The position numbers were made by a program, and so were the translations under genes. Below the pieces are notes generated by a model that was not told where the DNA came from, did no database searches, and worked only from the letters and a program-made list of their open reading frames with translations. Below are positions 24,526-50,659 of a stretch of 64,000 bases of DNA, piece after piece. Numbering within the stretch: position 1 is the first letter of the stretch; each line of letters begins with the position of its first letter. The DNA comes from Owenia fusiformis (taxonomy: Eukaryota > Annelida > Polychaeta > Sabellida > Oweniidae), in contig CAIIXF020000007.1 of NCBI GenBank assembly GCA_903813345.2, forward strand, positions 15,296,714 through 15,360,713, read 5' to 3'.

Positions 24526-27500
24526 TTGACGAAACCGCGAGCGTAGCGAGCGCGAAAAATTTGAGGTGATAAAAGTTTAGCAAAGGTGCTCAAACTTTGG
24601 CCAAAGGTGTTTAAAAGTTGGCCAAAGGTGTTCAAAATTTGGACAAAAGTGTTCAGATTTGGACTTCGGTGTCCAACATTTGTAAGTCACTCATATTAGG
24701 TGGTCCCAAGTTGACAGCCCTGTGGATATATCTTGAATATTATTAGTAAGCATTGATAAAATATAAACTTGTCAAATTTTATTGAAAAGAAGTAGTGAAT
24801 AAGAGAAATATTTGTTATTTTGACGTCAATTTTGGTATAATTTTATCAAAAGATGGTGCTATTAAAGCAATTTCTTATGCTTATACTTAATAAAAAATTT
24901 ATTTTGTAGGAATATTATTAAATAATGCCTAAAGACACTAATTTATCACATTTTATTGAAATAAAGGCAGTAAAAAAAATTATCAAAAAATATACATATT
25001 TGACGATAATTTTGGCGGCCATCTTGAATTTTCACCGTGAAGGAGTGGGATTCGCGCTTGGCAATGGGGATCAAAATTTAATGTCTATATTAGTCTGTGT
25101 GCCGAAAATCTAAGAATATATGTGATCGTGAACTATCACCATGTTAGAAACCCATTAGTGATTTGACTAAATGGAGTAAGACCACAATTCTATGATTTAG
25201 TATGGTGTAACATATGAGTGAAATCAAATATTCATGATGACAAGTTCATTATTTCATTACATCTAAACATGACATTTCAAAAATCTATATTACTTTGTTT
25301 TGGGCCAAACAGTGTAGTATTATTACACATCCCACCTCTCAATTATATGCCTTAGATTCCTTTAGCAATCTCTGTATGGAGTCCTAACACCCCTCTGGTT
25401 TTACTGATGACATTAACTTAGACGCGTCCACTATTGAATAAAGTAGTTTGTACACGTGCCAACGCCCTCAATTTCCCCATACATTAGTGCAATCAACACG
25501 CCGTTTTTGTTTGAAACAAAAATTTTATATGGAGAACAACAAGTCGTCAGTTGTAAAGGATATCAACCTTAATTCAACAATGAACTACAATGTCAATGAA
25601 CAACTGGAAGATGGACAAATTCCTGACTTTTCAAGTCAACTTCAAAGGGATAGTTCAAATTTGCTGCAAGGGAACATTTTCTCTGGCGAGGAAAATCCAA
25701 CTCCGGGTAGCATGCCATCCCACACCATCACCAGCGGCATAGACATTGACAACAACATCAACAGTGACTTCATGAATCGTGGGCTCATTCCACCAGGAAA
25801 TGAGGGGCATGATATGAACTCACAAGGGAAGGACTTGACTTGCCAGTCAAATTTCAACCCTACTTTGGATACTCGTGATTCTGGGCTCACCTCCCTACCC
25901 GGGACTGAGGTGCAGGACACATCCAACTTTCAACATCAGCACCCTACAACAGGGAGAGACTTCATACAGTCTAATAGTCTGAATTCAATAGGATTCAGAG
26001 CAACAAACACTTTACCATCTAAGAGGTTTTCAAAATCTCAACAACAACAACACTCCGAACTGCGGACCTATCAAAATCAACAACCAGGGCTAGCCTCAAG
26101 TATATCGCCAGATATGGTCCAAGATATTATCAAAGGACTGACTCCAACTCTTGAATTGCTCGTAGCAAACAAACAACTTGACGTTGAACTTCTAGGTGAA
26201 ACAACCAACAGAAGCAGGTCCGCTAAAAGAAGGGAGGTACAAAGAGCGAAAAAGCGAACTGTTTCGCCGTCTAGTCTACAGTATGTTTCCCCGGACCGGG
26301 CATCTAGCCCCAAACGGGCAAGAAGTGATCATCCCTACAGCGAAGTGGACTCACCCGTGACCTCTCCTGCGCACATGCGCCGTGACAGCAATAACCCGGA
26401 AGACTCGGATTCTTCCAATTCCGACAACGATCATGACTTAATTTGTTGGAAGAACTGTGTTAAACTAATTAAAAATGCCTTTCCGAGTCATTTTAAAACA
26501 ACTACAGACTATAACACAGAAACACAAACGGAAAATAAACCGCTAGGACTTCAAACTTTGGGTAAGAAATCTACTTCTTCAGACACAACAAAAGGCTTAC
26601 CGATCGGGCCTTCAGTGCTACAGAATTTCGCCAACATTAACCAGGAATTAGCCAACAAGAAAAACATGAATGACACTAACTTCCTGTTAAGACCAAAACG
26701 ATCGTTCACGTCCCTCAAAGAAGATGAACACTTCTATAAAAAATCCATTTTGAATGGGACAACTAAGGAACTTGTTCCACATTCCATGAAACTATCAGAT
26801 TTGGCTTCAACTTCTTACCAGCTTCCAGCCAAACATCACAAACTGTTGGAAGAATCAGCAAGAGCTCCTCTTCGTCATCTGTCTCACACTGAATGGATTC
26901 TAGGGACAACAGGGAAAATCATTGCGGAGAATTTCCCTGAAAATGAGGATCTCGTCAATCTTATTACAACAGCTTCAACTATGGTAAATAAGGCTACAAG
27001 GGACACCATTTCAAATGTCACAAACGTCATACTGATTTAAAGGGACAGGGTAAGCTCCAAGTTCAGGAAGTCAGACGCTGAAGCCCTTAGGAATCTCCCC
27101 ATCGACATAAAATTTTTATTTCCTGAAGAGGATTTAAAGAATATCTGTGAAGGGTCGGATAAATCTAAAACATCAAAAGCGCTACAAGATTTAGCTTCAA
27201 ACTGGAAAAATCGAAAACAGAATTATGATAAATCCAGTAATAACAACTCCAACAGAAGTAGTAATCAACATTCCAACTTTAACAGGAACAACTTCAACAA
27301 CAACAACAACAACAGAAACAACAACAGAAACAACAACAGAAACAACAACAGAGGAAACTTCTCTGACCGTTCTACTTCTACAAAATCCAACAACAATAAC
27401 AACAAATCAGGCTTTAAGAAGTGTAAATGACACTTCAATAACATCAATGTCCCAGCCCCGCCTCCCCCCGTTCTCACCTATGTCCCAGCTGGGACCAGTG

Positions 27501-30500
27501 GGAGGCAGGATTCAACTACACTTAAAAAACTGGGAACTCATCACAAAGGACCAATGGATTTTAAATGTGATAAAACATGGCTACATGCCACAACTAGTGA
27601 ACAATCCACCTATGACAAAAAACTTCAACAACTTCGAATCGGCATCAAAAACAAAAGCTCTACTGCTTCAAAATATAGTAGATCTCCTAATTCAAAAACA
27701 AGCTGTGGAGGAAACAGACTACAACACACCGGGCCACTACAGCATCATATTCTTACGCCAAAAGCCAAACGGAGATTACAGACCCATAATAGACCTGTCT
27801 CTCCTCAACAAACACATAATATGCCCAAAGTTCAAAATGGAAACTTCAGCCAAAATATCAAACTCTCTACAAAAGGGCGAATGGGCCACATCCATCGATT
27901 ATCGGGATGCTTACTACCATATACCGATAGCCAAACCATTCAGGAAGTTTCTTCGCTTCGTGATCAACAACAAAGTGTACCAATTCAAAACACTTCCATT
28001 CGGAATGTCAACCAGCCCTTATGTTTTCACAAGAGTGACATTAGCAATCGGTGCCTTCCTACACTTCCAAGGGATATTAACACACCAATATCTCGGTTTT
28101 GTGATCAACAGAGAAAAATCCGAACTGATCCCAACACAGATTTTCAAGTACATAGGCACCCAATACAACCTAATACTAGGCCTAACATATCCTCCGCAAG
28201 ACAGGATCCAGAAAATCTTAGAAATCGCACAATTATTCACCAATACCCTTTCTCAACCAACAAGGCAGTGGATGAAACTACTAGGCCTACTAGCCTCAGC
28301 AGAGAAAATATACCCTGGGGCAGACTATACATGAGACCAATTCAACAGTGTCTAGCCAGCCAGATGTCTCCTACAAAATCACTAGAGACACCAATCTACA
28401 TCAACCAAGAAGTAATAAACACACTGAAATGGTGGATGGACGAGCAGAATCTACTCATGGGTCAACCTCTGGGAATGTTTGTCCCAGATCACACAATCTT
28501 CACGGATGCATCGGAGACTATGTGGGGTGCACACATGGACTCTGTGGAAATCAATGGATTCTGGTCCCCATCGGAAATGAAAAACCACATCAACTGGCTA
28601 GAACTAGCGGCAGTATTGAAAGTTCTACACAAACTGAACCATCTACTGGTACCTCAAGCAAACATTCTAGTTTGCCTGGACAACACAACAGCCCTAAGCT
28701 ACATAAACAAACAAGGCGGGACAAAATCGAAAAGTCTTCTGACCCTAAGCCAGGAAATCCTAATCTGGTGCAAAAACCACCAAATAAACATAAGAGCTCA
28801 ACATATAGCAGGATCCCTAAACCGATGGGCAGACGCACTATCTCGGGGCAGGATAGTGAACACAGAATGGTCTCTACTCCCACAAATAGTGAAACGACTG
28901 TGGCAAATATGGGAGACTCCTCAGTTAGATTTGATGGCGACATGTCACAACAACAAACTACCACTATATGTATCCCCAGTACCAGACCAAAACAGCTGGG
29001 GAACAGACGCAATGTCAATCCCGTGGGACAATCTCAACTTCTACATATTCCCACCAACAAGCATGATCGACAAAGTTCTAACAAAAATGAGAACACACAA
29101 TTGCGAAGCCATAATGATAGCTCCAAAGTGGCCAAATCAACCTTGGTTCACACAAATTCTGGAACTTCTAACGGACTACCCAAGAACGCTTCCAGTGTCT
29201 CAAAAACTACTAAAAATGCCAAAGACAAGCATATTTCACCAGACTCCGGAAATATTTGCCCTTCACGCCTGCAAATTGTCAACGACACCCTCAAAAAACA
29301 AGGCTTTTCTACAGAAGTGTCTCTTCGAATCTCAGAATCATCAAGGAGGAAATCCACAAATAAACTCTATGATTCCAGGTGGAACACCTTCACTGTTTGG
29401 TGTTATGAACGGAATTCAGATCCATGCCAAGCAGATATTCCTCTAGTGGCAGAGTTTCTACTATATCTTCACCAGACTAAGAAACTTTCAATTCCTACCA
29501 TTGAAGGATACAGAACTGCCATTAATACAGTACTGAAAAAATCATCTGATATCGACCTGACTGATAATTCCCTCATAGGCGATCTTATCAGATCTTTTAA
29601 ACTGGAAAACCTGACACCAAGGAACATGGTACCTAAATGGAATCTTGTATTTGTTCTTAATGCTTTATCCAAAGCACCCTTCGAACCTATGGCCACAGCG
29701 GAACTTAAATTCACATCATGGAAAACACTCTTTCTTTTACTCATGGCTTCAGGGAAGAGAAGAAGCGATATACATGCACTCGACTTCAGACATTTAAAAT
29801 GGTCAGAATCCAGGGACCAAGTAACTATGTATCCCTTCATAGGATTTCTACCAAAGTCACTATCAGCTGCAGAAGGAGAATCTCGCTTTCAACCAATCCT
29901 CATTAAAGCTCTCACCACACTGGTGAATAGAGACTCTCCAGACAGGACACTTTGCCCCCTCAGAGCTCTACGTTACTACCTTCAAGCCACAGTCTCAACA
30001 AGGGGCAACCGAAATAGACTGTTTATACCATACAAAGCCGGATATACTGAAGATATACACGTAAACACTATATCTTCTTGGGTGAAAAATCTGATCTTGT
30101 ATACTTACAAAAATTCACAAGAAACAGATTACCAAATCAACTCTATTAAAACCCACGAAACCAGGGCCTTATCTGCAAGCCTTGCTGTTCAAGCAAATCT
30201 GTCAGTTACTGCAGTTCTCAAAGCCTGCTCATGGGCAAATCACAACACATTCACCAGCTTCTACCTACGTGATACATCAGTGATTGAGGGAGAACTGCGG
30301 AAACTAGGCCCTATGATGGTTGCAGGCTCACTATACAACATATAGCATCTTCAACAGCCTTGTGGTGAGTCATCATCATTAAACATTCTTATGATTTTAT
30401 AATGTAAATTATTTAGAATGTTCTACTTGTTGGTTTGTGGGTCCCTCTGGTTTAACTGAATTCACCCACCTCCTTTTCGGCTACATTCAGGCATATAATT

Positions 30501-33500
30501 GAGAGGTGGGATGTGTAATAATACTGGGAAAATCCTTTTTTAATTGATTTTCCTATTTATAAACATACCCACCTCTCAATTACCAAAGTCCCACCCGACC
30601 TCCCCACTATTCATTAGGGGGAATAGGGAAATTGAGGACGTTGGCACGTGTACAAACTACTTTATTCAATAGTGGACGCGTCCAAGTTAATGTCATCAGT
30701 AAAACCAGAGGGGTGTTAGGACTCCATACAGAGATTGCTAAAGGAATCTAAGGCATATAATTGAGAGGTGGGTATGTTTATAAACAGGAAAATCAATTAA
30801 AAAAGGATTTTCCCAATTTCAGCACAGAATGCAGCACGACTTCAAAATGAGCTGTTTTTGCATCATTATCAATTTCAACTGTCTTTGACTGTTTGCTGGT
30901 GTGTAATGCAAATGCATGTACAAATTTTATTCAATGTGAATCATGTATGAATTCAAAAGAATTTTCCTGACATGGCCATATATGGATTTCATGTGAAAGT
31001 AATTTGAGTTTTCCTAAAAAGTAGCAGACTCACATTTTGTCAACATAGTTATTTGGCAATGGCACTTTATGATGATTGAACATGTGGAATGCAAACTCCT
31101 TTCTTCCCAAACTACCATATGGGCACTGGTCACACATGAATTTCTTCCCTTTCTGATGACTCGCTGCAACATGACTCTGGAAATATATGTACCTCAGGTA
31201 TTAAAGGACAACTAAATACAAACTTTACACCTTTCTTCCCAAATTTTAACTACCATATACACACTGGTCACACACCAGACACACACATGAATTTCTTCAG
31301 ATGAATCTCGATAACATGACTCTGAATTTAGATACATGAAATGCAATCTTGTTTCTACTTTTACAAACATATTCTTTTGGCAACTTGCACAACTAGCAAC
31401 ATTTACATGGTGCACATTAGTGTTGTCGCGATGTGCCATAATCGTACATCGATGCATCGGCAATTTTCAGTAGTAAACATCGATGCACATCGCGATGTAC
31501 ATCGAGAAAAAGTTAGAGAAAAGTGCACTGAAATACCGAATGCTAATGCACTAAAATATCGAACAGAACAAATTAATAAGAGTACCCTGGTACATCCGGG
31601 AACATAGTAACGGTGAAATGAAAGTAAAGTAATTTTTTTAGATTAATGGTTCATTTCGACTAGCTAAAACAGTTTTAAAGCGAAAGAATATCAGAAAACA
31701 TTTGAAGATGAAATAAGACATGAAAAAAGGTAAGCAATTTGCGTCAAAATAAGATAAGAAGGGGCAATTTTTTTTAAAAACATCGATGTTTTGTTTCAGA
31801 CATCGATGCATCGCCAGAACCAGCTTTGGCGATGTATATCGCGATGTATCGATTAATCGCGACAACACTAGTGCACATTCTTATTCATATCTTTACTTAG
31901 GCCTCCTGAATAATACTGTGCCCCATTTGGGACCATATCACCTCAATCCAGAGAACCATCCATGCCAAATATATTAATATAAAGGCAGGGGTTCTTTAGA
32001 ATTCCTTTAAAAGGAGGTATAATGAATGTACTCTAATATAGCACATTTTAGGCTGATTACCTGTAGGTTTGATGCCTGTGTGAATGACTTATCACAATCA
32101 GGACATTTGAAAGGCCTGGAATCTATATGGAGTCTCTGGTGAACATCTAAAGCACCCTTTCTCTTAAATGTCTTCTCACAAACCTACAATTATAGGGTAT
32201 ACATATATGTGCATGAACATGTAATACAGAATATCTACTTACATTATACACAGGGGAGAGTTAGTCACCCCCCACCCCCTTATATCAAAATGCTAACATA
32301 TAGCCTAGAATATAAGAAGGAGGGGTCACTTACCCCCCATCAAGGTAAAACTCAAGAAAAATTCACAAAACTTCCTCCAATTAAACAGAATTCCTCCACC
32401 TTTGAGAAGTAGAGTGCTTGACAAAGTAAAAGGGTTCAGTTCTGCTCCATGCCAGCTGAAGATACATTTGTTTAACTGAAATCATCAGTTATGTGAATGA
32501 TTATCTATGGTCATTTAAATTACACAGGCTCTTGCAAGTCGCAAAGCTTATCACTTCATCAATGATGCATTTCCCTACACATCAATCAGTAAAACCTGTG
32601 TAGCTACACACCCTTTGTTCCACTTAAAAGTGTTCCACTTAGAAGGTGTTCCACTTCCAGAGGTTGAAGTTAATTAAGTCAATGGGTTATGGGACTGTGA
32701 AAGTGTTATACATACACAGGTGTTCCACTTACAGGTGTTCTACTTGACAGGTGTTCCACTTACAGGTGTTCCACTTACAGGTGTTCTATTTGACAGGTGT
32801 TTCACTTGACAAGTTTTACTGTACTGTCATGGATACAAATATTAATACCCTGGCACAGAGATTATTAATAGACAGCAGCACCAGGATTTACATAAAACAT
32901 TTTGTACTAATTTTCTATATGACAGTGACTATTTGTTTACCTTGCATTTGAAAGGCTCTTCTTTTTTGTGTGATGTTTGATGACTCTTGAATACATGGAT
33001 ATCTATTGTCTGGTATTTACAATTCTCCACCTATACCATGAAAAAGCAACAAACTTAGAATTAACATACAAGGAATTTTTTAATTCATAACATTCTACAG
33101 GCAGTTAAATATTCATAAATATTAATAATATTGATAAAAGTCCATCAAGTGAATGATCGAAGAAGAGAACTTACCTGACCCTTGCGTGCTATAGTTAGGG
33201 ATTTAAGCACAAGACAAAATGCAAATGTTTATAAAATTCATGACTTGTGGATTGTAGCTTTTTAAAACCAAGGTCAACAATTTTGTAATCTTAGTATAAA
33301 TCAAAATATAAGACTACTTTAAATGAGGCAACCATTTAAGAAATTCATTATTGAGCAGAGATTCTATGCCTTGAAGGCAGACTATAAAATCTGCCAACAA
33401 GTATTTGAGTTATCGCCCAAATAGACAGATACACTAGAGGATGCAGTGATCTCAGCACCATTAAAGCAAGTGGGCACAGCACCCACATGAGCTTTTTGAA

Positions 33501-34963
33501 AACAGCCTTGCACCCACCTGAAAATCAATTTGCGCCCACTTTAAAGTGAGAGAAATCATGAAAATTTGGCATATTTTGACTAATTTTGGTCTGAATTGTG
33601 AAAATGAAAATTTTGCACTCACTTGAGAAAAATCCTGGGGAGATCACTGGGATGGACAAAACTTGCAATGAGAAAATAAGATAAGGTTTCTTACCTCACA
33701 TTTCAGGATAACATATTTCTCTTTATCAAATGGGACACCATGCTTATGGAACTTGTGCCTATCCAATCCCAGCTTCCGTCTATCTTTGAATGAACACAAA
33801 TTACATTTATACCGCGAGTTCCAATTTCCAACTAGATGTTCTTTTCTGTGCTGTACTAGTTGAGAATGTGTATCAAACGTTTGCGAACATTTCCTACATT
33901 TACGATGTTGAAACTTGGTCGGTGATGGATTATTCTTCTCTGATTCTTCTTCACAATTTACCCCAAGTTTTGTTGAAGAAATATTTGGTGAACTATTATC
34001 ACCAATTGTAGAAGTTTTTGATTTTTGGTGTTGAGCTTCGATATCTTGTGGGATAGATGTCTTTGATTTTTTGGAAGATTCGCTATCATTTATGAATGGG
34101 GTTTCATTTGATGATTTAACATTTGGCACAGGGTTTTCCACAACCTGAGAAGTTTTTTCTTGAAGTTGACCTCCTTCACTTGTGGCAATTTCGGCATGTC
34201 TCCTTTTACGTGAAGCATTTACAGCATCTTTAGTTGAACCCACCTGTGTCTCTTTTTCCCTTTGAGTGGCTTTCCTTGTGTGATAATGTTTCACTGATGT
34301 GCCATAAGGTTCATCAATATTTTTATCACTTGACGTTTCTATATTTTTGATTGGATCTTTACAAGTTGAAGTTTCATAAATCTGTGGTCGGCCTCGTTTT
34401 CTTTTTGGAGTGTCCACACCTTTGGCTTTGATGATGCTGCCATCACATTCTATTCCTTTTGAAACTGATGTCTTAGGTTTCTTATTTTTGGACTTAACAA
34501 TTGTTGAGTTTTTAGTTGAATGATCTTTAATTCTTTTAGTTTGTATTGTTTCTTGTTTACTAGTTTCCGATTGAGATGTCATATCACTTATAAGGTCCTT
34601 ACATAAAGCTATACCTTCGGATAATTCAAGAGCTTTAAAATAGTTTAAATAATCCTGAACTTTGGAATTTTGAATCATTAAACATCCTGTATACAAAAAT
34701 CGAACTATTTTGCTTAACTCATCTTGGTTAAGATTCAAATGATCAATATTCCAAACTCTTTTAGTCTTCCATGATTTCTCAGCTTGAAATTTCTCCAAAG
34801 TTGCTGCTAAGACGAGTCTGTGTACCGGGATGATCAAACTGTCACACTTTATGTTTATATCACATGCTTTATGTGACTGTTGTAATGTATACAAGCAATC
34901 CAAGAGCTTGGATCTATGTTGCTTGGACGTCAGAGTGACAGGAGTGTCACCTTGTAAGTCCAT
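16029..34963 (-). CDS. BTB domain, AT-hook, ten C2H2 zinc-finger protein (8 exons, 943 aa)
   Basis: Exons in transcript order: 34963-33695, 33030-32941, 32183-32061, 31176-31034, 18849-18776, 18366-18280, 17751-17660, 16982-16029. Their 2832 nt join in frame, and several fingers are completed across splice junctions. A BTB fold covers about residues 20-125 (CDIN..., PVHRLVLAA, FLYTGCL). An AT-hook (KRKRGRP) lies near residue 190. Ten C2H2 fingers lie between about 350 and 650, followed by a ~290-residue Ser/Gln/Pro-rich tail. BTB domains dimerise and recruit corepressors, while fingers and AT-hook bind DNA, so a nuclear transcription factor is likely. BTB plus AT-hook plus many fingers resembles ZBTB24 or PATZ1, but I cannot assign orthology. 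Intron 4 is about 12.2 kb and holds the DIRS element and a tandem-repeat element. Confidence 0.85.
17043..17353. mobile_element. piggyBac-like MITE in BTB-ZF intron 7
   Basis: Exact inverted ends TTAACTCATTC (17043-17053) and GAATGAGTTAA (17343-17353), each including TTAA, the piggyBac target. Subterminal inverted motifs AAGGACTTGATATGACGTC and GGACGTGATATCAAGTCC are typical of piggyBac MITEs. Non-coding. Confidence 0.6.
18908..19270 (-). repeat. Inverted partner of the repeat at 24750-25137
   Basis: Contains TTCTTAGATTTTCGGCACA, CATTGCCAAGC, CTCCTTCATGGTGAAAATTC and AAGATGGCCGCCAAAATT. The reverse complements of all four recur, slightly diverged, at 24750-25137. The two arms lie about 6.2 kb apart in one intron and may be long terminal inverted repeats of a decayed DNA transposon, or two unrelated insertions of one family. 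Confidence 0.55.
19501..21656 (-). mobile_element. Second tandem-repeat element, ~14 monomers (copy 2)
   Basis: Inverted relative to copy 1. Its left end (AACAAGGCATTAACATGACA) is the reverse complement of copy 1's right end. Its right end is the hairpin ATGTCACCAC-TTTT-GGTGGTGACATA preceded by CGGAGACCATAACAAT. The core is the same ~140-bp monomer. It sits in BTB-ZF intron 4 and is oriented with that gene's transcription. Confidence 0.75.
21657..23492. other. BTB-ZF intron 4 sequence without supported features
   Basis: A 12-G run lies at about 21720. Frames at 22265-22558 and 22973-23212 (+) contain scattered Cys and His but no complete zinc finger or recognisable domain, and lack usable splice support. 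I regard this stretch as intronic. Confidence 0.4.
23493..25137 (+). repeat. ~550-bp direct duplication interrupted by a MITE
   Basis: Block 23493-24041 is repeated from 24041 to about 25115. Shared segments include AGATAACAGTTA, GGGTCAG-ATGAATAAAATAA, CTGCACAACACTCTTCTTTA and AAATATAAACTTGTCAAATT. The second unit is longer because a 525-bp element inserted at 24198-24722 split it. Poly-G (about 13) lies at 23591. Confidence 0.65.
24198..24722. mobile_element. 525-bp inverted-repeat MITE with a 50-nt poly-C tract
   Basis: Ends CAGGCCTGTCAACT and AGTTGACAGCCCTG are inverted with one mismatch. TGGATA flanks both sides (24192-24197 and 24723-24728), a probable target duplication. The interior has repeated TGTCACGCA and an uninterrupted run of 50 C at 24475-24524. 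The CAGG start and short duplication fit hAT-like non-autonomous elements. Confidence 0.65.
25331..25478. repeat. DIRS left inverted terminal repeat
   Basis: CCCACCTCTCAATTATATGC through CCTCAATTTCCC. Its reverse complement appears at 30626-30772 with only a few differences (for example TTAGACGCG against TTGGACGCG), implying a fairly recent insertion. Confidence 0.88.
25529..27430 (+). pseudogene. DIRS Gag-like ORF, broken by an in-frame stop
   Basis: The likely start is ATG 25529 (MENNKSS). The frame has Gln/Asn/Ser-rich and basic segments (RSRSAKRREV, KRARSDH), and then Gag-like helical sequence. It meets TAA at 27038-27040 after NVTNVILI. The same frame continues at once with RDRVSSKFRKSDAEALRNLP, typical of the DIRS Gag C-terminus, through an Asn-rich stretch to a stop at 27428-27430. 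The TAA therefore looks like a single nonsense change. The last ~200 nt overlap the RT frame. Confidence 0.75.
27447..29446 (+). pseudogene. DIRS reverse transcriptase/RNase H, deleted catalytic box and frameshift
   Basis: Frame 1 (first ATG 27447, to stop 28334) carries RT motifs: IFLRQKPNGDYRPIIDLSLL, ATSIDYRDAYYHIPI and FKTLPFGMSTSPYVFTR. After ILTHQYL at about 28093 it jumps directly to GFVINREKSEL. The YxDD active-site block and following residues are missing in an in-frame deletion. Near 28310-28330 (a CTGGGG run) the homology moves to another frame, which runs to 29446. That frame carries RNase H motifs TIFTDASETMWGAHMD, WLELAAVL, CLDNTTALSYINKQGG and GSLNRWADALSR, then the conserved DIRS post-RNase H region (IAPKWPNQPWF). 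The protein cannot be active as it stands. Confidence 0.85.
28348..30345 (+). CDS. DIRS tyrosine recombinase (YR) ORF
   Basis: The open frame runs 665 codons from 28348, but its first ~270 codons lie over RNase H in another frame and are probably not all translated. The recombinase proper starts near 29170 (SRLQIVNDTLKKQGFS). It shows the core-binding region (DSRWNTFTVWCYE, IPLVAEFLLYLH) and the catalytic residues of the family: Arg in ASGKRRSDI, His-x-x-Arg in KTHETRALSASL, His/Trp in CSWANHNTF and Tyr in TSFYLRD. It would insert the circular DNA without target duplication. No break is visible in this part. Confidence 0.85.
   Translation: MSSQPDVSYKITRDTNLHQPRSNKHTEMVDGRAESTHGSTSGNVCPRSHNLHGCIGDYVGCTHGLCGNQWILVPIGNEKPHQLARTSGSIESSTQTEPSTGTSSKHSSLPGQHNSPKLHKQTRRDKIEKSSDPKPGNPNLVQKPPNKHKSSTYSRIPKPMGRRTISGQDSEHRMVSTPTNSETTVANMGDSSVRFDGDMSQQQTTTICIPSTRPKQLGNRRNVNPVGQSQLLHIPTNKHDRQSSNKNENTQLRSHNDSSKVAKSTLVHTNSGTSNGLPKNASSVSKTTKNAKDKHISPDSGNICPSRLQIVNDTLKKQGFSTEVSLRISESSRRKSTNKLYDSRWNTFTVWCYERNSDPCQADIPLVAEFLLYLHQTKKLSIPTIEGYRTAINTVLKKSSDIDLTDNSLIGDLIRSFKLENLTPRNMVPKWNLVFVLNALSKAPFEPMATAELKFTSWKTLFLLLMASGKRRSDIHALDFRHLKWSESRDQVTMYPFIGFLPKSLSAAEGESRFQPILIKALTTLVNRDSPDRTLCPLRALRYYLQATVSTRGNRNRLFIPYKAGYTEDIHVNTISSWVKNLILYTYKNSQETDYQINSIKTHETRALSASLAVQANLSVTAVLKACSWANHNTFTSFYLRDTSVIEGELRKLGPMMVAGSLYNI
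30490..30582. repeat. DIRS internal complementary region
   Basis: The junction ATACT/GGGAAAATCC at 30525/30526 joins the reverse complements of the two element tips. GGCATATAATTGAGAGGTGG on its left side mirrors the left tip. On its right side the sequence mirrors 30756-30814 with one visible change. This is the template for completing the ends during replication in DIRS1. Confidence 0.82.
30626..30772. repeat. DIRS right inverted terminal repeat
   Basis: Reverse complement of the left terminal repeat. It continues into a right extension (30773-30814, containing AAAAAAGGATTTTCCC) that is absent from the left repeat but present in the internal complementary region. Confidence 0.88.
31418..31870. 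mobile_element. 453-bp hAT-type MITE with 8-bp target duplication
   Basis: Inverted ends TAGTGTTGTCGCGAT and ATCGCGACAACACTA. GTGCACAT flanks both sides (31410-31417 and 31871-31878), the 8-bp duplication expected of hAT elements. The interior has subterminal CATCGATG and CGATGTA motifs. It lies in BTB-ZF intron 3. Confidence 0.8.
32586..32823. mobile_element. TACAGTAAAACCTGT MITE, copy 2
   Basis: CAGTAAAACCTGTG at the left and ACAAGTTTTACTGTA at the right. The interior is expanded by repeats of CAGGTGTTCCACTTA. It lies in BTB-ZF intron 2, just before the acceptor-side exon at 32941. Confidence 0.6.
33444..33649. mobile_element. CAGTG-TCTCC family element, copy b
   Basis: Starts CAGTGATCTC and ends GGGGAGATCACTG, with GTGGGCACAGCACCCAC and TTTTGCACTCACTTGAG inside. 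It ends 45 bases from the BTB-ZF exon 1 donor, within intron 1. Confidence 0.65.
33695..34963 (-). CDS. BTB-ZF exon 1: BTB domain, AT-hook, first two fingers
   Basis: This 423-codon exon starts at ATG 34963 (MDLQGDTPV) and ends on a codon boundary at ATLKCE-type sequence (VILKCE/GTAAGA). It supplies the BTB domain, a Lys/Ser/Thr-rich linker with the AT-hook, fingers 1 (CRKC...H) and 2 (CNLC...H), and the first Cys of finger 3. The second Cys of finger 3 comes from the next exon (VENCKYQ). The frame runs past the donor to a stop at 33644, which would give a truncated protein if the intron were retained. Confidence 0.85.
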
Positions 34964-35944
34964 TATTATTATGATGGTTTAATGCCTCTAGCTCTTCATC
35001 TGAAATACATGTATTTAAGTAATAACAAAAAATTAACATATTATTCTTATTTTGGTTTCACATTTCTTGAAAGCTTCCTGCAGGATGTATCTATTTCTTT
35101 CAAGAGTTTTAAAACAATCACATGTTGCTTTAGACTTACTAATTGCGTTCAATTATCAAGAAATGTGTCTGGGCGAAAACAAAAAATAAAATATATGTTG
35201 CATTGGCTTATGTTGCCCAACAATTTACTGTAGGCTTGACAATATTATGTAGATTTATAAATCTCTTGCTCTTGATTTTAAACTACACAAAAGCTGAAAA
35301 CAAAGACATAACAATCAATTAATAATAATAACCAAAACCAGGATACTCTGAAAGTACATCTATCCAGATTTAAGATTACAGCCGACAAACAAGCTTTTAG
35401 CAAGGTGGAAATCGGGAATTAAAGAGGTACCTGTATAGTTACAGTATTTATATTGCACATATTCTAATACATTGAGCGCCAGCGCCATTGCTATTCTTGC
35501 CTGTATATTTCTACGGCTGCAAGGAGAATGGCCAATATTCTTGATTTTGAATCTAACATGACAATGTGATACCCATATATGGAAGAATATCAAGTTGCGT
35601 CCCTGGGAGCCAATCCTCCATGACATTGAGCCAAGTATGTTTATAGTTTGCACCAGCAGATCTAGACGGGGGCGTGGGGGGCGCAAAATTCGTGTTTTGC
35701 CTCATCGCTTTTCACCAAATTTGACTCTTCGCTCACTTTTATTATGACACGCCCCCCCTAACACAAAATCCTGGATCTGCCCGTGGTTTGTACTATAACA
35801 AGAAAATCAAGTGAAAATGACACTAGAAAAATACGAAGGCCATAATGCTATTTTGACAAAACTGATCCACTTTTTATTGAAATACCACAGAGAAAGACAA
35901 TGAACAAACTGCATTTTACTGCTTGTTTTCTGTTGGCTAGGTAA

Positions 35945-39690: not shown

Positions 39691-41467
39691 AAATTGATTT
39701 TTGGATGTAAATTTTGGTCAGCTTAATCACAAAAGACCTTACTGAGCTCAATAAGTATAATTTTCAAGGTCAAAGGTCATCAAACTAGGTCACACAACTG
39801 TGCTGTCTAAGTTTCTCAAAGTTCGAGACTACAAATCCAAATAAATATTTTTGTTTGAAAGTCAGGATATACATTCCTCTGAAGGTTCCAAACTATGTGA
39901 GCACAGGACCGTGGGTCCTATTTTTTATGTTAGTCTCAGCATTCATGCTTCCACGAACTAATCATTATAATCTTAGGGAAGTAATATAATTTTTATATAT
40001 GTCCATGGGTTGAAAAGACCATGTGCAGTATGGCAAGTGATTTTAGATGGTCAAATCTTTCACCATGAGTGCTTTCTGGGCATAAATACAGTGGTTCTTA
40101 TTAAAACAATATGTTTTCTTTCAAGTAAAGTACCCACGCTGATAAAAATATTGATCGAACAATTCGAAAAATTATGAATTAATTTTATGTCAACATTTTT
40201 TTCAAAATATTGAACCTTTTTACTCAAAAGAGGATCTTCTTTTTCTGATTTTTATTGCATGAAAAGATTATTCAACAAGGGGTTTAAAACATCTTCAAAA
40301 AAAGAATGGTATTGAAAGTCTAGTTTTGAAGATATCAATTTTTGATGACCAAAATTATGCTGAAAACAATGGATAGCACGAGTTTTCCCTATGGGAAAAT
40401 AACATATGGGATATGTGTTTTAACTTAAACGCATTTCAATACCTATCACCTTTTCAGAAATTGTTAATATAGTGTAGATGAGACTTTCGATATGTTTAAA
40501 TTGAGAAAAACAAGATCCTCTTTTTAGAAAATGAGCCAAACATTTTTTGAAAAGTGCCAAGGTGGGGCCTAATCCATAATTTTTCAAAGAGTTGGATTGA
40601 TATTTCACTATCATGGGGACTTCAAGAAAGATATGAGTGTCTAAAATCACTTTCCATACTGCACTTGGACCTTTGAATGTGTTGTCGGAGTACCAACCCT
40701 GTTCAAAGAGATACCCAGCCATATCTACTGGAGAAAGAATATTTACCCTGACTCCAAAAATCAAATGCCCCGCCCCTGGCACTGCTTGTAAAAAAAACTC
40801 TTTGATTTTACACAATTGAATTGTTATCCCTCCTACTTTGTAAAGTGAGATAACAATGGAGCTGTAGTGTAGAATTGCATAAGTCCATTCATTTGTTCAT
40901 CCATCAATTTATTTGGTTGTCCTGATGCCGGGGGGGGAGGGTACTGTTCACCCACATCACATATTATTTTTCGCTAATTTTTAGATTTTTAAATTTCGCG
41001 GCTTTGTGACTTCTCAAAATGTGTAATACTTCGATTCTTTTTATATGTTTTTTAGAGTTAGTGGATTTGTCTTGTAATAAATTACACCCTTTCTACTTCA
41101 ATATCAGCCTCAGAGATTTTGGCTTCATCTTTATGGCCATTTTGTGACAATGTTCCTTTAATTATGATATTTCAGAGCCCAAATGTAAAATTACAGTAAT
41201 TTCCCTACCTTTTATCACCAACACTTGATGGAAATTGTCATCATTGAGTGAAATAAATTTTGTGACTATTATATTTTGTGAATTAAAACTTTTTGAATTT
41301 TCGCGACTTTTATAATTCGCAAATTTTCAAAAAACATGAAATAAAGTAGGACACAAAATTTACTGAGAGTGCAGTATAGTTTAATTGAAAAAAATATTTC
41401 AGGGATTCATTTATGGGGTCAGCCTGTACATTTATTGATCCAAATACAATATGATCTTTTTATAGCT

Positions 41468-42069
41468 TAAAGGAATATTCCTTGCCAGACTCTTTCTCTC
41501 TTGATATGGTAGCTATAATCATATATATAGTTTCCATATTTAGCAAAACATGGGAAAATGTTTTAATATGGTCAATATTGATCATTTAAAAATCTAGTGC
41601 TTATTTCCAGTGAGCTGCCATCTTTTAAGATTTCTTGCAGGAAGTGATGTCATCAACTCCTATAACCTTGCCCATAACAGTATAGGGAAGTAGCACAAAA
41701 TCACTTCTAGACAAGTGATCATTACTTTCTGGGCAAAAATATATTTAAGGCTTGTTAACTTAGAATAAAAGAAGAGATTTTCAGAAGGATTAAATAAGAT
41801 TCAAAGTTGAAAAAGAATATTTAGCTGGTTTTGTAATTCTTAATAGCTCCTCACCTAATGCTATATGCAAAGTTGAGAGTCGATGACATCACTTCCTGTG
41901 TGAAATTTTAAAAGATGGCAGCTTACTGGAATTGAGCATCACATTTCTAAGTGATCAAATTTGACCATATCAAAACATTTTTGAGTGTTTTTCTAAACAT
42001 GGCAAGCATATATATGGTTATAGCTACCATATGAGGAGAGAGATGGTTTGGCAAGGAATATTCCTTTAA
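41468..42069. mobile_element. ~600-bp fold-back element with ~190-bp arms
   Basis: TAAAGGAATATTCCTTGCCA at the left and TGGCAAGGAATATTCCTTTA at the right begin long imperfect inverted arms. These also pair TAGCTATAATCATATATATA with TATATATGGTTATAGCTA and GGAAGTGATGTCATC with GATGACATCACTTCC. The right end stops 24 bases before the splice acceptor of the Ubl-Death coding exon. Confidence 0.7.
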
Positions 42070-42105
42070 TGTAACAGATTAACTCATTTTCAGGTATGTT
42101 TGAAC

Positions 42106-45100
42106 ATGGAACAAGATAGAAAAGAGAATATGGAGTCTGATGTGGTCGAGAGTGATGACTTAATTCTAAGCAATGAAGAAGATGAAGAAACTGATGAGGA
42201 GGTTGAAAGACTCACAAGTCCATCTCCTTCAAGGCCCAGAGACAAGATGGAAAGCCAACCTGACCCACAGGCTGCTTTGATGGCTGGTCTCAAGCCAAAA
42301 TATGTTGAGCTACCACCAGAAAAACATGATAACCATATAGAGGCTGATGCCTTATCTAGCCGTATGTATTATTAGTTGGTTTTAATCTATATATACTATC
42401 AAAAACCTTATTGGAACTCATTTCAAAATACACACTTTAACAAGGACCAGAAACTCAGAGCAAAACAGACCTTAGTGAAGACCAAGCAAGGTGCCAATCC
42501 GATTCACATTTAGATCAAATAAGCAATACATGTAGGAGATTCACCATTTGAAAACTATTTAGAACAAGAATTTTATTGCATGTAAATAAGGAATAAGAAA
42601 CTGTTGAACTGTTGGCCAGTAATTAAATGAATAGCTGATTTTATAATTTTGTTATTTAAAAATATACTCTGCTCCAGTTATTCACCAATAATCCATTCAA
42701 TCTCACTTGGATTTGAGAAAGTTTCGGGCTCATTTATTTGAAAATTTATCTTCTATATGGTTGGGGTTTTCATATTTCAATTGCTCAAACTTGCAGTCCA
42801 TTTTGAAATGTTTTGCTGGGTAATAAGTTGGGTCTACAATTATTTCAAAACTATTGAATCTACAACTATGATAAATTACATGTATGTTCAGATATAAACT
42901 ATCAAATGGGTCTATAGGAGACTTATTATAGACTTTACTATGTTAATGACAATTATAAACTGTCCCCTACTTTACTTTTTAATTCTATTTTTATTTATTT
43001 ATTCCTATATATTTCAACAACAAATGTACAGTAAACGGGTGACACTACTCGTGTATATTCCCGTGATTTATCAAAATAAAAATCAATTGTACTTATTTTG
43101 TTTTCAGGTCCTTCTGATTCTAATACTGTAGTGCATCAAATGGATTTATCAATAAATGGCAATGGTTTAGGATATCAGTTCATGGACTCATCACCAGAGA
43201 GACTGTTCAATCCAATACATGTATCTGCAACAAGTTCTTTGGCAGGAACCCCTGTGTTTGATATTGAACACCCAAGGCGCCAAAAACGTATCTCTGAATC
43301 AACATCAACATCTGGTGTAATGTTGGATATGAATAGAATGGTCCTCGAACGACTTCGAAATGAGGAGCACTCTTCATTGTTACCTGTGCACATTGAATTA
43401 TTTGATCTAAGAACCTCTGATTTCTGCCAAAGAAAGTCTTTAAAATTAGATTACAAAATTCCTGGCACAATAACAGAGTATAATTCTGAACATGAAATTG
43501 ATATTGCACAAATTATTCTTGAGAAGTATGGAGACAAGGAAAAAGATGTTGTGTGGACAGAGCCAAAACTTGTCAAATATCGAGACATTGTACAGGTACA
43601 ATACCAGCACTTCGGCATGATAAAGGCAATCATCTGCAGAAAAACTTCTGGAGAAGAACATTTTAAAGATGTTGCTTTTATAAGGTTCATCCAAGATTCT
43701 GAGGCTGTGTATCCAAGAGAGATTTATGCAGGTATTTTGGACTCAAATTTTGCACCATCTGACCTGATTGAGTGGTCCTTCAAGAAGCAACAGGGACTCT
43801 TGCAGAAAGCTGAATATCAATCAATAAAAGACACTGAATTCAAAGTCTTCGTTCAGCATGAAAACTCTACTGAACTAAAACAGATGAAAACATTGAGCAG
43901 TCTTGTCAAGTTGAGTACAATCTGGATTGTCAACAAGATCCCATTAACTGCAACATTGTTGTATTTCATGTCTGACAATGCCAAAATGGAACTTTTCTAC
44001 AAGGGTTACTTAACTGATACCCTCTGTGAAATTCAACAAGGGATCATTCGAGAGTTCTCTGCTGCCATGGGAATAGATAAGAGTTCTCAACATATCTGGC
44101 TTTGTAAAGTTACGAATGACTCAATGACGGGTCCTCCATTAAGAGATGCAGATTGTGCCGCCTTCCTTCACCTACAAGTCATGCCTCAGAGATTCTTTGA
44201 TGTTGGTTATAACCATAGTGTTTTCGATAGTCATTTTGTACAAATGATCAAGAAATTTGTTATGGATGTAGAAGATCCAAGGTCTATGTATGTTGAGGTG
44301 ACCTACAGGAGAAGCAAGACACCTACAGGACGACGACGTTTAGCTGTCAGTACAAGTGGATATAACTCGGAAGATTTGGTGATCATTCCCCCAGATTGCT
44401 CAGTGGCATACCTGAAAAGAAAGCTTGCCAAGCGTTTTGGCATTCCGCCATGTCGCCAGAAGTTGCAGCTGGATAAGACTAAATTGAGGGATGACAAAGT
44501 TCTCCAAACTTACTCCCACTTCAAAGAGGGATGTATGATTATTATGTTGGAAGCAACACCGCTGAAAATTATTCTGATGTGCAGCGATGAGAAATATTTT
44601 TCAATGGAGGTGTTCAAGTCGCAAACTGTGCAATCAGTGAAAGCCAACCTTGGGCAATATTGTGGAAATATAAGTCCCTACAATATTTCACTAAGTATGT
44701 CTGATTCTGGTGAATATATGGAAAGTGAAAGCTACCTTTACCAGTACAACATATCCAGATCATTGGACACCAAAATCAGGGCTTTGTACTTCCCTAAACG
44801 TGCTGACATCATCATTATACACAGGCACAGGAAATTTGCTTGCACAGTGGATGAAACTGATAGCTGTACTATTAAGAAATTGAAAGAACATCTTGAAGGT
44901 TCCACCAAGCTTGCCAGTAAGGACCAGATACTTATCAGTAGGGACCGTTGTCTAGATGATGATGTTGTCATTGAAGGGCACAGTGTTATCATTGTTGCCG
45001 AGAGGAGCAAGACATGGTGGTACATGGAAAAGACTGAGGCCAAAGAGGTTAAGGAGCATAGAGAACTGAGGATTGTTTGCCAATCAGGATACAAAGATAA

Positions 45101-47085
45101 CATTCTGGTAGATAACGAACTTTATGAGGCCCCAGTGGTGAAAGGAAAGATGTATCTTGGTAAGTGTGAAGTCAACGAAGGGATCTTTCTATTGCACCAT
45201 TGGTTGCTATATACTAGTATTGTGATCAGGTTGGATGGGTGTGAGGTGGATATCAAGTTTCCTGTTTTCCTGTCTGTCAAACTATTTAATGGATTGACTC
45301 GAAATTCTCAGGAAATTGAGGACTGTTTGATTTTTGGTTTTATCTGACCTACTATCTAACCTGTTTCCGCACTAATGAATGATTTTAGGATCACTCATTA
45401 CTATATCACGACACCTACCATTTAAGAAATGTCATCAGAAAATATTATTGAAAATATACAGTTTAGGAAAAAAACAAAACTTCATTCAAGACCACTGATT
45501 TTTGACATGCAGACATAGCCCCCATATTGTAAGTTCCCCTGAATTTACAGTTCTTATGGTGTACTCGAATGTCAAATGTCAAGAACTCTGTTACAAACCA
45601 TGACTTGTATGCTTACTCATATTCTAATAAGTATTCTTGTATTCTTTCTTTTACATACAACACATTGACACTCCTAATTATTGGCTTACATGTATCTTCC
45701 TTAAAAAGAATTCATACGGTAGCTTGTGCATTGTAACTTTTGTTTGGTCTTTTACTTCTAGACAAAACTCCATTAGATCCTGCTGCTAATACAGATACTG
45801 CTGAGGAGGTTAGTCTCAACCAGCATGGTTCCTGCTGCGGCATAACAATCAGGGCTGCCACACGGGGCAGCCATATCTCAAATGCCTCCCATCAGAAAAT
45901 TGCAAAAAGCACATCACATAGTTCAGTGCATGATATTGACACTTTAGATAGCATATCATCAACAAGATCAAGTGAAGTAAAAACAGCTGATACAATAGCC
46001 ATCGGTGAACCTTCTGAAATCCCTATTGGACTTCATGATGCTCCTGCAGCAACATGTCCTGCACTGGAAGTAGAAAGTGACCCTGACAGCTTTTGCAGTA
46101 TGAATAGTATAAAGGAAACTGAGATTGCTCCCAAAGATGATGATCAATCTAAAGAAATCTGCAAGCCCAACTCGCATGATTTCCCACCTGAGATGTTTCA
46201 CCAAAGGGAAATCAAGAATTTTCTCAGAGAAATATCTCCTTCTCATCCACAGCGTGTGACAGTAGAAGTGAAACAGAAGAAAACGGCTGATGAATGGACC
46301 CAGAGCATAATTTACAGTAGTGACACCAATCCTGACCCAGACACTGATTCTGGCCTGAGTATCCTTGAAAGGTCAGGTAGCATCCAGCCACTGGATTTGG
46401 GGCCTGATTGTGAGTATAGAAAAAGACTCGTCACCTATCTTGACAGTAACTGGAAGTTTTGAAGATAAACATCTGATTTCTTATTGTCTGTAGCATCATA
46501 AAATATACAGTTCTTGTAAAAAATGTTGAATCTATGACACAAAGATTGGAGATTAATTATATCATGGGCTTTCAATCGTTGAAAGCCCATGATTATATGA
46601 AAAATGAAATTGATACCATGTTTAGTTTTGAAGTTATTTCAGACAATTGCCATGTCCTTATTCATTCATAACATACTTTTCAAGTCTCTATTGAAAAAAT
46701 AGAATGTGCATGGGTTCATCATTATTGTCTCACTTTTAACAATTGATGTTGCTTTTGAAGTAAGATAATTGTCAGATTACAGTTGCCAATACTTTCAGGT
46801 ATGTCTGACAGAGAGGTTCGTGCTGTTGCTGAGCAGATGGGTAAAGATTGCAAGCAGTTAGGGAGAGCATTAGATATTGACGAAAATGCTCTTTCATACA
46901 TTGAACGTAACTTTAAAGATGATCAACATGAGCAAAATATCCAAGTTTTAATAAAATGGAAGAAGAAAGGCAGAGCTGCAACAAAAGATGTACTGGTTGA
47001 GGCTCTCAAAGCTGTAGGAAGACAAGACATAATTGACAAGTTTCCATTTTTGCATCAACTTGAAATGAATGACAGTGTCAGTTAA
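42106..47085 (+). CDS. Multi-ubiquitin-like and Death domain protein (4 coding exons, 1080 aa)
   Basis: Coding exons 42106-42361, 43108-45159, 45762-46409 and 46799-47085 total 3243 nt; all three junctions are phase 1, GT..AG, and join in frame. The first exon begins after an acceptor at 42093, so a leader exon lies upstream. The acidic N-terminus (SNEEDEETDEEVE) is followed by a long folded region. This region contains at least three beta-grasp/ubiquitin-like stretches at about residues 479-566 (YVEVTYRR...IIMLEA), 570-648 (LKIILMCSDEK) and 650-720 (ADIIIIHRHRKF...HSVIIVA), and perhaps one at 355-446. A Ser/Thr/Asp-rich linker leads to a Death domain at about 987-1075 (VAEQMGKDCKQLGRALDI...LIKWKKKGRAATKDVLVEAL). 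Death domains assemble apoptosis and immune signalling complexes, so this is probably a cytoplasmic adaptor. I know no named family with this order. Confidence 0.8.
43108..45159 (+). CDS. Large exon with the ubiquitin-like array
   Basis: The acceptor TTTTCAG precedes GTCCTTCTG. The exon encodes about 684 residues (87-770) in one uninterrupted frame, ending at the donor CTTG/GTAAGTG. The frame stays open past the donor to a stop at 45345-45347. Ubl assignments rest on repeated beta-strand/helix spacing and on motifs such as ILISRDRCLDDDVVIEGHSV, which resembles the second half of a ubiquitin fold; sequence identity to ubiquitin is low. Confidence 0.8.
46561..46593. repeat. 33-nt hairpin in the last intron of the Ubl-Death gene
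   Basis: ATCATGGGCTTTCAA, a 3-base loop TCG, then the exact complement TTGAAAGCCCATGAT. Located 152 bases after the upstream donor and about 205 bases before the Death exon. Confidence 0.8.
46799..47085 (+). CDS. Death-domain exon
   Basis: The acceptor ACTTTCAG joins GT to the T left by the preceding exon, making Cys, then MSDREVRAVAEQMGKDCKQL. The 95 residues cover a whole Death domain with the usual Trp (IKWKKKG) and final helix (RQDIIDKF). One exon for one domain in symmetric phase 1 is typical of shuffled modules. Confidence 0.88.
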
Positions 47086-47307: not shown

Positions 47308-49126
47308 CATACCTGCCAACCTAAGACCAAAATTTTGCGGTAGATTTTTTTAAAATTGCTGTATTTTTGCGGTAGATTTTTTCAAAATACGGTAGTTTTT
47401 GCGGTATTTTTCAACAAAATTGCGGTAGTTTTTGCGGTAGATTTTAGAAAAAACTGTAGTTTTTACGGTAGATTTTTTAAAAAACGGTAGTTTTTGCGGT
47501 AGATTTAAAAAATATGGTAGTTTTTGCGGTAAATTTTAAAAAAATACTGTTGTCTCAGAGGTTTGGTGGAGATTTTTGAAAAAAGTGTAATTTTGCGGTA
47601 GAAATTTGAAAAAAGCAGTAGTTTTGCGGAAGATTTAGAAAAAATGCGGTAGTTTTACGGTAGATTTTTAAAAATGCGGTAGTTTTTACGGAAGTTTTTT
47701 GAAAAACCGGTAGTTTTGCGAAAGATTCTGAAAAAATGCGGTAGTTTTACGGTAGATTTTGAAAAAATGCGGTAGTTTTTACGGTAGTTTTTTGAAAAAC
47801 CGGTAGTTTTGCGGAAAATTTTGAAAAAATGCGGTATTTTTACGGATACGGTAGATTTTGAAAATTGGTTCTTTCTAAATCTAGATTGATTCAAAATACG
47901 AACACAATATTCATATCTCCACTTTTATTCACCTTCTAACCAGTTTTTTAGATATCAGGATGTTTGGAAATACCATGAATGAAACATTTACTGAAATACA
48001 AAATATGGATTTTACACGTTTTTACTCACATCTTAGATGATCTATCACTTTAACGAATTGAAATGACAGACATAATGTTCATATAACATTGGAATCATAT
48101 GGTATTAAATATTGATTTGTTCACTCGCAAGTTACATTGATTTTAATAAAAAAAAAAAAAGATATCAGTATGTTTGTCTGGCACAAATAGAAAATAAGTA
48201 CAGATCAATTGTCTTTCAAAAATAATCTGTTATGAGCATTTGCTGAAACCTTTCCCCTGAGACATCGTTCAGAATCGGATATCACAATATTTTTATAATA
48301 AACCAGAACTCAATGCTTTATTTTTTAATTATGTATTTGTTACTGATAATGTGTTCTGATGAAAAATACAACATTTATCGTTCTGTAAACAAATTGATTA
48401 AACTATGTATAATGTATATGTGGCGTTCATTACTGATCATAACAAATAAAACTACGCATATTTCATACGCTAAATATGCATACGCATTTCCACTCATTTA
48501 TTTAGATGAAGCGCAACTAAAATCATATTTTTGTTGCATTCGGAAAAAAGATCTGTGTACAAAAGGGTTTGGTTAACTACAAAAATCATGGCAGAAAGAA
48601 TTCTTTCTAGCTAGTGGTAGTTGGTGTTTGGACTGATTACACGCAAGCTTACTTAGATAAATGCGCAATAACCTGATAACCACAGACCTGCCGATACCTA
48701 TTTATATTCGGGTTGGTGAAGGAATATTACAGGGACAGTACAGGAAGACTTCAATTTTTCAGCATTTCCCAATAACAATAACGGGAACTTTTACGGTAGT
48801 TTGAACAAAAATACTGTTGATTTTAGCAGAAATGCGGTAGATTTTCGAAAATTTACGTTAGATTTTCAAAAATTTACGGTAGATTTTCAAAAATTTACGG
48901 TAGATTTTCAAAAATTTACGGTAGATTTTACAGCCTTTCTCATGGAATAAAAGAGTTTTTTAAAAAGAAAATTTACGGTAGATTTCGAAAAAATACGGTA
49001 GATTTTTTTACGGGCGTTTTTACGGGAAAAAAATGGTATTTTTTTACGGTAGTTTGTCATTTTTTTACGGAAAAACGAAAAATTTACGGTAGATTCCCGT
49101 AAAAATACGGTAGGTTGGCAGGTATG
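47308..49126. mobile_element. 1.8-kb element with perfect 16-bp inverted ends and GGTAG repeats
   Basis: CATACCTGCCAACCTA at 47308 and its exact complement ending at 49126. TAATC flanks both sides (47303-47307, 49127-49131); ATGTAATC could be read as an 8-bp duplication if the ends are three bases shorter on the left. Direct degenerate repeats of GCGGTAGTTTTTGCGGTAG fill 47335-47860 and 48790-49110. The unique centre (about 47900-48780) has no recognised gene. Confidence 0.7.
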
Positions 49127-50659
49127 TAATCTGTAGTGCGAAAAAGCACTTTCAATCAATTACTTTGATCTCTCTTAAATTTAGCTACATACAACTTGAT
49201 AGAATGAATGCAACCTAAAATGCTCATGGTACATTTAGGTCTGATTATTCCCCTTGGACATCATTGTAAGTTTGAACAGCCTTTTGGCAATATCTGTTAC
49301 CATCATGGCAATGAATTATGGGACTTAAGGACATGTAACAGTACTGTAACATTGGATTAATGAGATATAACTGAATCAGTTAAGCTTAGGGTACTCAAAC
49401 TTAAAATTCATACAATGAGTATCAATGTGGAGATGTTATAAGAGTTAATACTTTAGGCAATATCTGTTACCATGGCAATGAGCTATATAAAATTTTCAGC
49501 CAATTGTTACTGCAGTCATTGGAATTCAAGCACTTGAACAAGAATGATAATTGGAGCTGGAAAAGTCATGGTACATCAGATAAACTTTAATCAACAAAAT
49601 GAATGTTAGAGGCTTCTTCGGATTTTTGGGCAGTATTGCAGTATTGATTGCCATAGTAACAAATATATTAATCTCTTAACTGCATTCTTGTACATGTAAA
49701 TGCCTTTAGTTTGAGCAAATAAATTACATTGATATCAATATACATGTACAAGTTCAACTAGACTAATAGTATAAGTATAATGTACATGATTAAATTTATT
49801 AACTCACATGGTTGAGCTATTGTTATCACCTACTTACTCGTTTGTTCCTCCGTTCAAACATTGATTTTATGTATCCTTCAATAGGCCTACAACTCAATTC
49901 AAATTGGTTGCACTTACAAATTATGTAAATTGCATTAATTAGTCGTCTCAAAAATATTGTCAAGTGTTGTCTCATTTGACCTCATTTCAAAATGATGGGA
50001 GTTTTTTTATTGTTGAAAAATCAATTTCATGCTTTTATTTAACTTCCACTATACTAATTGGCTTAAAATATTGTTTTTTTGTATTGCACTAATTTGCTTA
50101 AAATTGTCTATTTAGCTTATGCGTTGAAAGACAAACAATAATGTCTAGAAATTTGTCAAATGTCTTCCAAAAATTCAAAATGACCAGCACATTTTTGTTT
50201 CACTACTGCATTGATTTGCTTGAAATTTTAAAAGGTAGACCAGCTTTTAGATTAATGGTTTTATTCTTGCTAAAATGACAGGTGCTGTTGTTGAAAATAC
50301 ATTTCTGTGTGAGCCAAATACTACCCATGGTACTATTTTTATTTTTTTTACGTGGCAATTTATTGCCAAATTTTGCACATTCCTGATACCAGGAAAAGGT
50401 AAAAATATTTTATGGTGCATGTATTTTTATATGCAAGTATTACATACCTAGCAAAGCATTTGTATGGAAATCAATGGGAAAGTTAGTGGGTGCCCGATTA
50501 CTCCGATATAGCCCCTGTACCTCATTTTGATATTAGATTTCTTTAATAACCATGACAAAATCACAATGTCATGTATGATTTCGATCAAATTTTACTCACA
50601 CACATATGTGTGATGTCACTGATACAAAGTAGCCATGGGAATAGGTATGTAATACATCA

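Follow-up and report, generated by a model that had tools for sequence, protein, structure and literature searches.

We analysed a window of 64,000 nucleotides from the genome of the annelid Owenia fusiformis (contig CAIIXF020000007.1 of assembly GCA_903813345.2). The window contains a predicted four-exon gene whose 1080-residue product would join, in this order, three tandem ubiquitin-like domains (Ubls) without a Gly-Gly motif, about 265 residues with no Pfam match and a C-terminal Death domain. The Ubl array and the Death domain make an apparently unusual pairing, in which the Ubls appear to be non-detachable. The reading that we favour, tentatively, is that a single-copy gene encodes a presumably cytoplasmic Death-domain adaptor with an array of integral Ubls as its docking site.

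The ubiquitin-like array of exon 2

Comparison of the whole of exon 2 with the ubiquitin profile PF00240 gave an E-value of 3.2e-16 (59.3 bits against a cut-off of 25.4), the match falling into three stretches within residues ~474-726 that we term A, B and C (Table 1). Taken singly, A scored above the curated cut-off (34.6 bits), with B (14.9 bits) and C (22.3 bits) below it. Alignment to the genome's own ubiquitin, assessed with 1000 shuffles, yielded z values of 10.4, 6.6 and 2.5 for A, B and C, respectively; the ubiquitin score was equalled by 0/1000 shuffles for both A and B. Like polyubiquitin, which is its best match in the PDB, the array places several ubiquitin folds in one frame. Unlike those of polyubiquitin, its units are mutually dissimilar, lack Gly-Gly and are identical to ubiquitin at 23 (A), 20 (B) and 12 (C) of 76 positions.

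When the PDB was searched by phmmer with B alone, all 30 of the rows returned were ubiquitin or engineered ubiquitin by name; the best E-value, 1.9e-4, is a sum over repeated units, and single-ubiquitin chains gave 0.16 to 1.9. With C alone, 34 of 34 rows were ubiquitin-fold proteins by name. Elongin B led (9.8e-4), and the matches included FAT10 (0.0089), BAG6, ubiquilin, ubiquitin variants and one eS30 chain, the front part of which is a Ubl. A and B thus match ubiquitin itself, while C has its best PDB matches in elongin B and FAT10.

Structures of a 605-residue region and of the B-C pair were predicted with AlphaFold, each folded as a single sequence without relatives. The low-confidence B-C model (predicted local distance difference test score, pLDDT, 36.8) contains a strand-strand-helix-strand order in B and the same order, with one extra short strand, in C. 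In a Foldseek search with this model the best 50 of 924 matches were all ubiquitin-fold structures by title, every E-value being 0.08 or higher. We lend these matches, consistent but weak, little weight.

The first-pass annotation had described at least three ubiquitin-like stretches ahead of the Death domain. Three tandem Ubls are indeed present in exon 2, but they are confined to residues ~474-726, and no further Ubl in residues ~165-470 was supported by Pfam, by phmmer against the PDB or by alignment to ubiquitin. Pfam gave two chance matches there at 0.16, phmmer of positions 43344-44270 found one PDB chain at 0.51, and for three pieces of residues 165-470 the ubiquitin score was reached by 516, 283 and 43 of 1000 shuffles. 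Additional Ubls in this region are accordingly not claimed. A strand-strand-helix order is seen near residues 367-405 in the low-confidence model of the 605-residue region.

Features of the Ubls relevant to conjugation and binding were read from alignments to ubiquitin, which are gapped near positions 8 and 70, towards the ends. A C-terminal Gly-Gly is absent from A, B and C, the aligned residues being Lys-Ile, Ile-Ile and Ser-Lys, respectively. The Leu8-Ile44-Val70 patch is the usual face for ubiquitin readers and is needed by canonical ones. It is intact in none of the units: the corresponding residues are Pro-Gln-Met in A, Ser-Ser-Pro in B and Arg-Ile-Ile in C (with gaps near positions 8 and 70), Ile44 thus being retained only in C. 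Leu43, a core residue, and Lys27 are retained in all three units and Lys63 in A. The ubiquitin fold therefore seems to be kept and the canonical face not. To judge from their sequences, A, B and C look like integral Ubls in which the core has been kept, with the usual binding face lost from A and B.

These features bear on an earlier suggestion, made in the first-pass annotation, that the array might mimic or scaffold a ubiquitin chain next to a Death-domain assembly. The underlying architecture is supported, but the mimic is weakened by the missing Gly-Gly and by the Gln and Ser at position 44 of A and B, which together make a plain ubiquitin-chain mimic unlikely; the array may still serve as a scaffold. 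As a chain mimic, the three Ubls would imitate polyubiquitin and recruit NEMO-, TAB- or A20-like readers to the Death-domain assembly, as OASL reportedly does for RIG-I, a sensor whose CARDs are themselves death-fold domains. The A core and B do align with two consecutive linear ubiquitin units, and Ile44 in C, Lys63 in A and Lys27 in all three Ubls also speak for the idea. A precedent is provided by OASL, which, in the available part of one report, likewise carries tandem Ubls in one polypeptide (two, C-terminal), mimics K63-linked chains with them and boosts RIG-I signalling (PMC6019448). That same part describes the contact between OASL and RIG-I as Ubl-independent, although both Ubls are required for the boost (PMC6019448). 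OASL differs further in having an OAS-like domain where the window protein combines three Ubls with a Death domain; no Pfam match to an OAS-like domain was found in the window protein at E-values up to 10. Considering also the residues at position 44 in A and B and, from gapped alignments, at positions 8 and 70 in all three units, we regard chain mimicry as rather unlikely. The loss of Gly-Gly and the altered face favour private contacts over polyubiquitin mimicry of the OASL type.

Proteasome binding is common among integral Ubls that lack Gly-Gly, for example those of Rad23 and ubiquilin. The protein might accordingly act as a proteasome or p97 shuttle, its Ubls docking at proteasome receptors and its Death domain delivering a Death-domain client for degradation, such that signalling is damped. 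The weak matches of C to BAG6 and ubiquilin chains are in keeping with this function, but no UBA or STI1 match was detected by Pfam at E-values up to 10, the four exon pieces being scanned separately. In addition, the match of C to OTU1_UBXL, itself of the ubiquitin-fold class, is weak (0.13 to 0.17). A shuttle function is on balance improbable.

The Death domain and the gene model

Exon 4 matched the Death profile PF00531 with an E-value of 2.3e-14 (53.7 bits over a cut-off of 22.6; profile positions 4-81 of 86), bearing out the C-terminal Death domain that had been proposed from the sequence pattern. Its best PDB matches were chains of PIDD, RIPK1, CRADD and ankyrin-3 (4.4e-4 to 5.3e-3), and these matches do not assign a Death subfamily. 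The likeness to PIDD, RIPK1 and CRADD (4.4e-4 to 5.1e-3) is one of Death domains. None of the domains that accompany it in those proteins (LRR/ZU5, kinase or CARD) gave a Pfam match in the exons of the window gene.

The four predicted exons splice into one frame of 1080 codons, within which there is no stop and no frameshift. All three introns have GT-AG boundaries and all three are in phase 1. A leave-one-out codon score placed the predicted frame best of six in every exon (0.61, 0.07, 0.31 and 0.31 bits/codon for exons 1 to 4, against 0.25, -0.14, 0.13 and 0.12 for the best of the other five frames). Splice sites, phases and codon score thus agree with the single four-exon frame of the earlier annotation. 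Exons 2 and 3 could each be skipped in frame, because both are flanked by phase-1 introns.

Table 1. Predicted features of the Ubl-Death gene (window positions)
Feature	Positions	Strand	Residues	Remarks
Exon 1, coding part	42106-42361	+	1-85 + 1 nt	acidic, low-complexity N-terminus
Exon 2	43108-45159	+	86-769	holds the three Ubls; open 755 aa stop to stop
Exon 2, N-terminal half	43344-44270	+	~165-473	without recognised domain
Ubl A	44271-44570	+	~511-565 (Pfam core)	Pfam core 44382-44546; PF00240 alone 1.6e-8
Ubl B	44556-44807	+	~569-652	PF00240 alone 0.022
Ubl C	44802-45029	+	~651-726	PF00240 alone 1.1e-4
Exon 3	45762-46409	+	770-985	Ser/Thr/Asp-rich linker; without Pfam match
Exon 4	46799-47085	+		terminal, includes stop; Death domain 46816-47040, residues ~992-1066

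The exon junctions are predicted from sequence, and the model might wrongly combine two adjacent genes, one with the Ubls that stops after exon 2 or exon 3 and another, short one for the Death domain. Because exon 4 has an in-frame ATG at 46801, two bases past its start, such a Death gene is possible on sequence alone, and the frame of exon 2 continues for 188 bases beyond its donor to a stop at 45347. This read-through into intron 2 shows no coding signal, however (codon score -0.02; other frames 0.11 or lower), and the phases match throughout. Moreover, exon 4 begins at a phase-1 acceptor, a frequent start of Death exons in this genome. We therefore consider a mis-joining to be doubtful.

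The frequency of that start was assessed across the assembly, which comprises 498 Mb in 525 contigs. Most Death and ubiquitin matches lie on twelve contigs, C1 to C12, nine of which measure 31.9-40.8 Mb and the first at least 56.9 Mb, with the remaining matches on small contigs. Counts from these genome-wide searches are lower bounds. At least 67 Death matches were found at an E-value of 0.001 or better, the window gene included. Twenty were taken from the 66 others, mostly with a match beginning no later than profile position 4; some early-starting matches were left out, and one with an internal stop was replaced by a neighbour starting at position 7. The best-scoring acceptor was in phase 1 in 16 of these exons (in one, L017, by a tie) and in phase 0 in four. 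The same rule applied at 3000 random places in open, non-genic frames of the window returned phase 1 in 1066 cases (P 6e-5 for 16/20). With a four-member cluster on C2 taken once, the count was 13/17 (P 7e-4). An acceptor 17 nucleotides before the profile match is shared by exon 4, where it is in phase 1, and 5 of the 20 other Death exons. The similarity of exon 4 to the genome's usual phase-1 Death exon suggests exon shuffling, and the gene may have originated when such an exon was shuffled onto an exon encoding the Ubl array.

Four similar Death-domain frames (L009, L011, L013 and L014) lie within 130 kb on C2 (C2:28347787-28474646).

A TTTCAG at 42088-42093, shortly upstream of the ATG of exon 1, suggests an additional 5' exon. 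Forty open reading frames of at least 45 residues were viewed on both strands between 35800 and 42100; only that at 40420-40896 (minus strand) was scanned with Pfam, giving nothing at 0.01. An inverted repeat at 41467-42069, with 193-nucleotide arms that are 83% complementary, resembles a miniature inverted-repeat transposable element and ends ~24 nucleotides upstream of the probable exon 1 acceptor. Directly downstream of the Death exon is a minisatellite of ~31-nucleotide units (47320-47870), and, judging from open reading frames, a comparable array may lie at about 48720-49160.

A proposed docking array on a putative Death-domain adaptor

Animal Death-domain complexes are usually tied to ubiquitin via separate ligases and readers. 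In the adaptor that we favour, both sides would be present in a single chain. By analogy with known Death domains, the C-terminal domain would join a Death-domain oligomer, for example of the PIDD/CRADD, RIPK1, FADD or MyD88 type. The Ubl array could then provide a clustered docking site for dedicated partners that bind ubiquitin folds (an E3, a deubiquitinase, a kinase or a proteasome receptor), whereby enzymes of the ubiquitin system would be brought to the Death-domain complex. The array would thus act as a scaffold of integral Ubls and not as a substitute polyubiquitin chain. If correct, the gene would represent a natural one-chain fusion indicating which ubiquitin-fold contacts count at Death-domain complexes, and would show the mobility of phase-1 Death exons to be a route to new immune or cell-death adaptors.

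A bolder version would have the protein as a hard-wired adaptor, in which the three-Ubl array on a Death-domain oligomer replaces or caps the polyubiquitin step of Death-domain signalling, with assembly by itself sufficing, in the absence of an E3 ligase, to recruit downstream ubiquitin-fold readers. This we hold to be distinctly unlikely.

Besides the ATG within exon 4, several points weigh against the docking adaptor. C is weak in plain alignment to ubiquitin, with 27 of 1000 shuffles scoring as well, and the alignments of A, B and C to one another are no better than shuffles. The lack of mutual likeness implies old or fast-evolving units as opposed to a recent duplication. AlphaFold confidence was low for both the 605-residue region (pLDDT 32.4) and the B-C pair (36.8). 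In exon 4, an AG in phase 2, four bases ahead of the profile match, outscores the phase-1 acceptor (12 vs 11); the phase-1 site was retained because the phase-2 one would break the frame. The phase test itself employs a crude rule, counts near pairs on C6, C8 and C12 separately and leaves a general intron phase bias uncontrolled. Finally, the partner and the pathway are purely conjectural.

Uniqueness, related architectures and neighbouring elements

A search of the O. fusiformis genome with the exon-2 protein at an E-value of 0.01 returned one other match, polyubiquitin (0.0056), and no paralogue of exon 2 was detected in that genome. The ubiquitin and Death matches of the window gene lie 2.4 kb apart, the next closest pair being separated by 168 kb, when 24 ubiquitin and 67 Death positions were compared (the former representing 37 matches, 16 of them from a polyubiquitin array on C2 reduced to three positions). 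Among the detected matches, this is the sole ubiquitin/Death pair within 100 kb in the genome. Searches of NCBIfam gave chance matches only, and no relatives were found in IMG/VR viral contigs or prokaryote genomes, as expected for an animal gene. The single copy, and the lack of relatives in its own genome and in the latter two collections (neither of them well suited to finding an animal gene), might also be taken to indicate a non-functional or decaying copy. Given 1080 codons free of stops and frameshifts, canonical splice sites and in-frame codon bias, we find this very improbable indeed.

According to the first-pass annotation, no described family with this order of domains is known. Tandem Ubls and a Death domain in one protein were not named in the titles and abstract openings of the open-licence articles listed from PubMed Central (PMC), most queries not requiring both terms. 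The statement is thus not refuted by those texts; no described precedent for a Ubl array followed by a Death domain was found among them, and caution about novelty is fair.

Among known proteins with tandem ubiquitin folds, ISG15 was aligned by phmmer with the A core and B (8.3e-5) and FAT10 with C (0.0089). ISG15 and FAT10 are conjugated via a C-terminal Gly-Gly. In contrast to these proteins and to ubiquitin, A, B and C lack the motif, and the predicted protein continues to the Death domain.

TRADD-N, for which Pfam holds a model, gave no match in the window protein at E-values up to 10; such a search could overlook a divergent TRADD-N within residues 165-470. In the available part of one study, marine invertebrates are described as joining TRADD-N to variable domains, including Ub and Ub ligases (Kaur et al. 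2021, PMC8195603). The resemblance lies in the combination of cell-death adaptor domains with domains of the ubiquitin system in lineage-specific architectures; tandem Ubls with a Death domain are not described in that part (PMC8195603). In light of these fusions, the joining of cell-death adaptors to ubiquitin-system parts is a known theme.

Elsewhere in the window, a retroelement at 25331-30772, presumably DIRS-like, is bounded by terminal inverted repeats of 150 nucleotides that are 98% complementary. One of its open reading frames (27195-28334) matches the reverse transcriptase profile PF00078 (9.1e-14), and a second, longer one (28294-30345) has no Pfam match at 0.01. On the minus strand, the open reading frame at 16029-16982 contains a C2H2 zinc finger slightly under the curated cut-off, and that at 33644-34978 encodes a BTB/POZ domain (2.8e-10) with C2H2-like motifs, recognised by eye, near its end.

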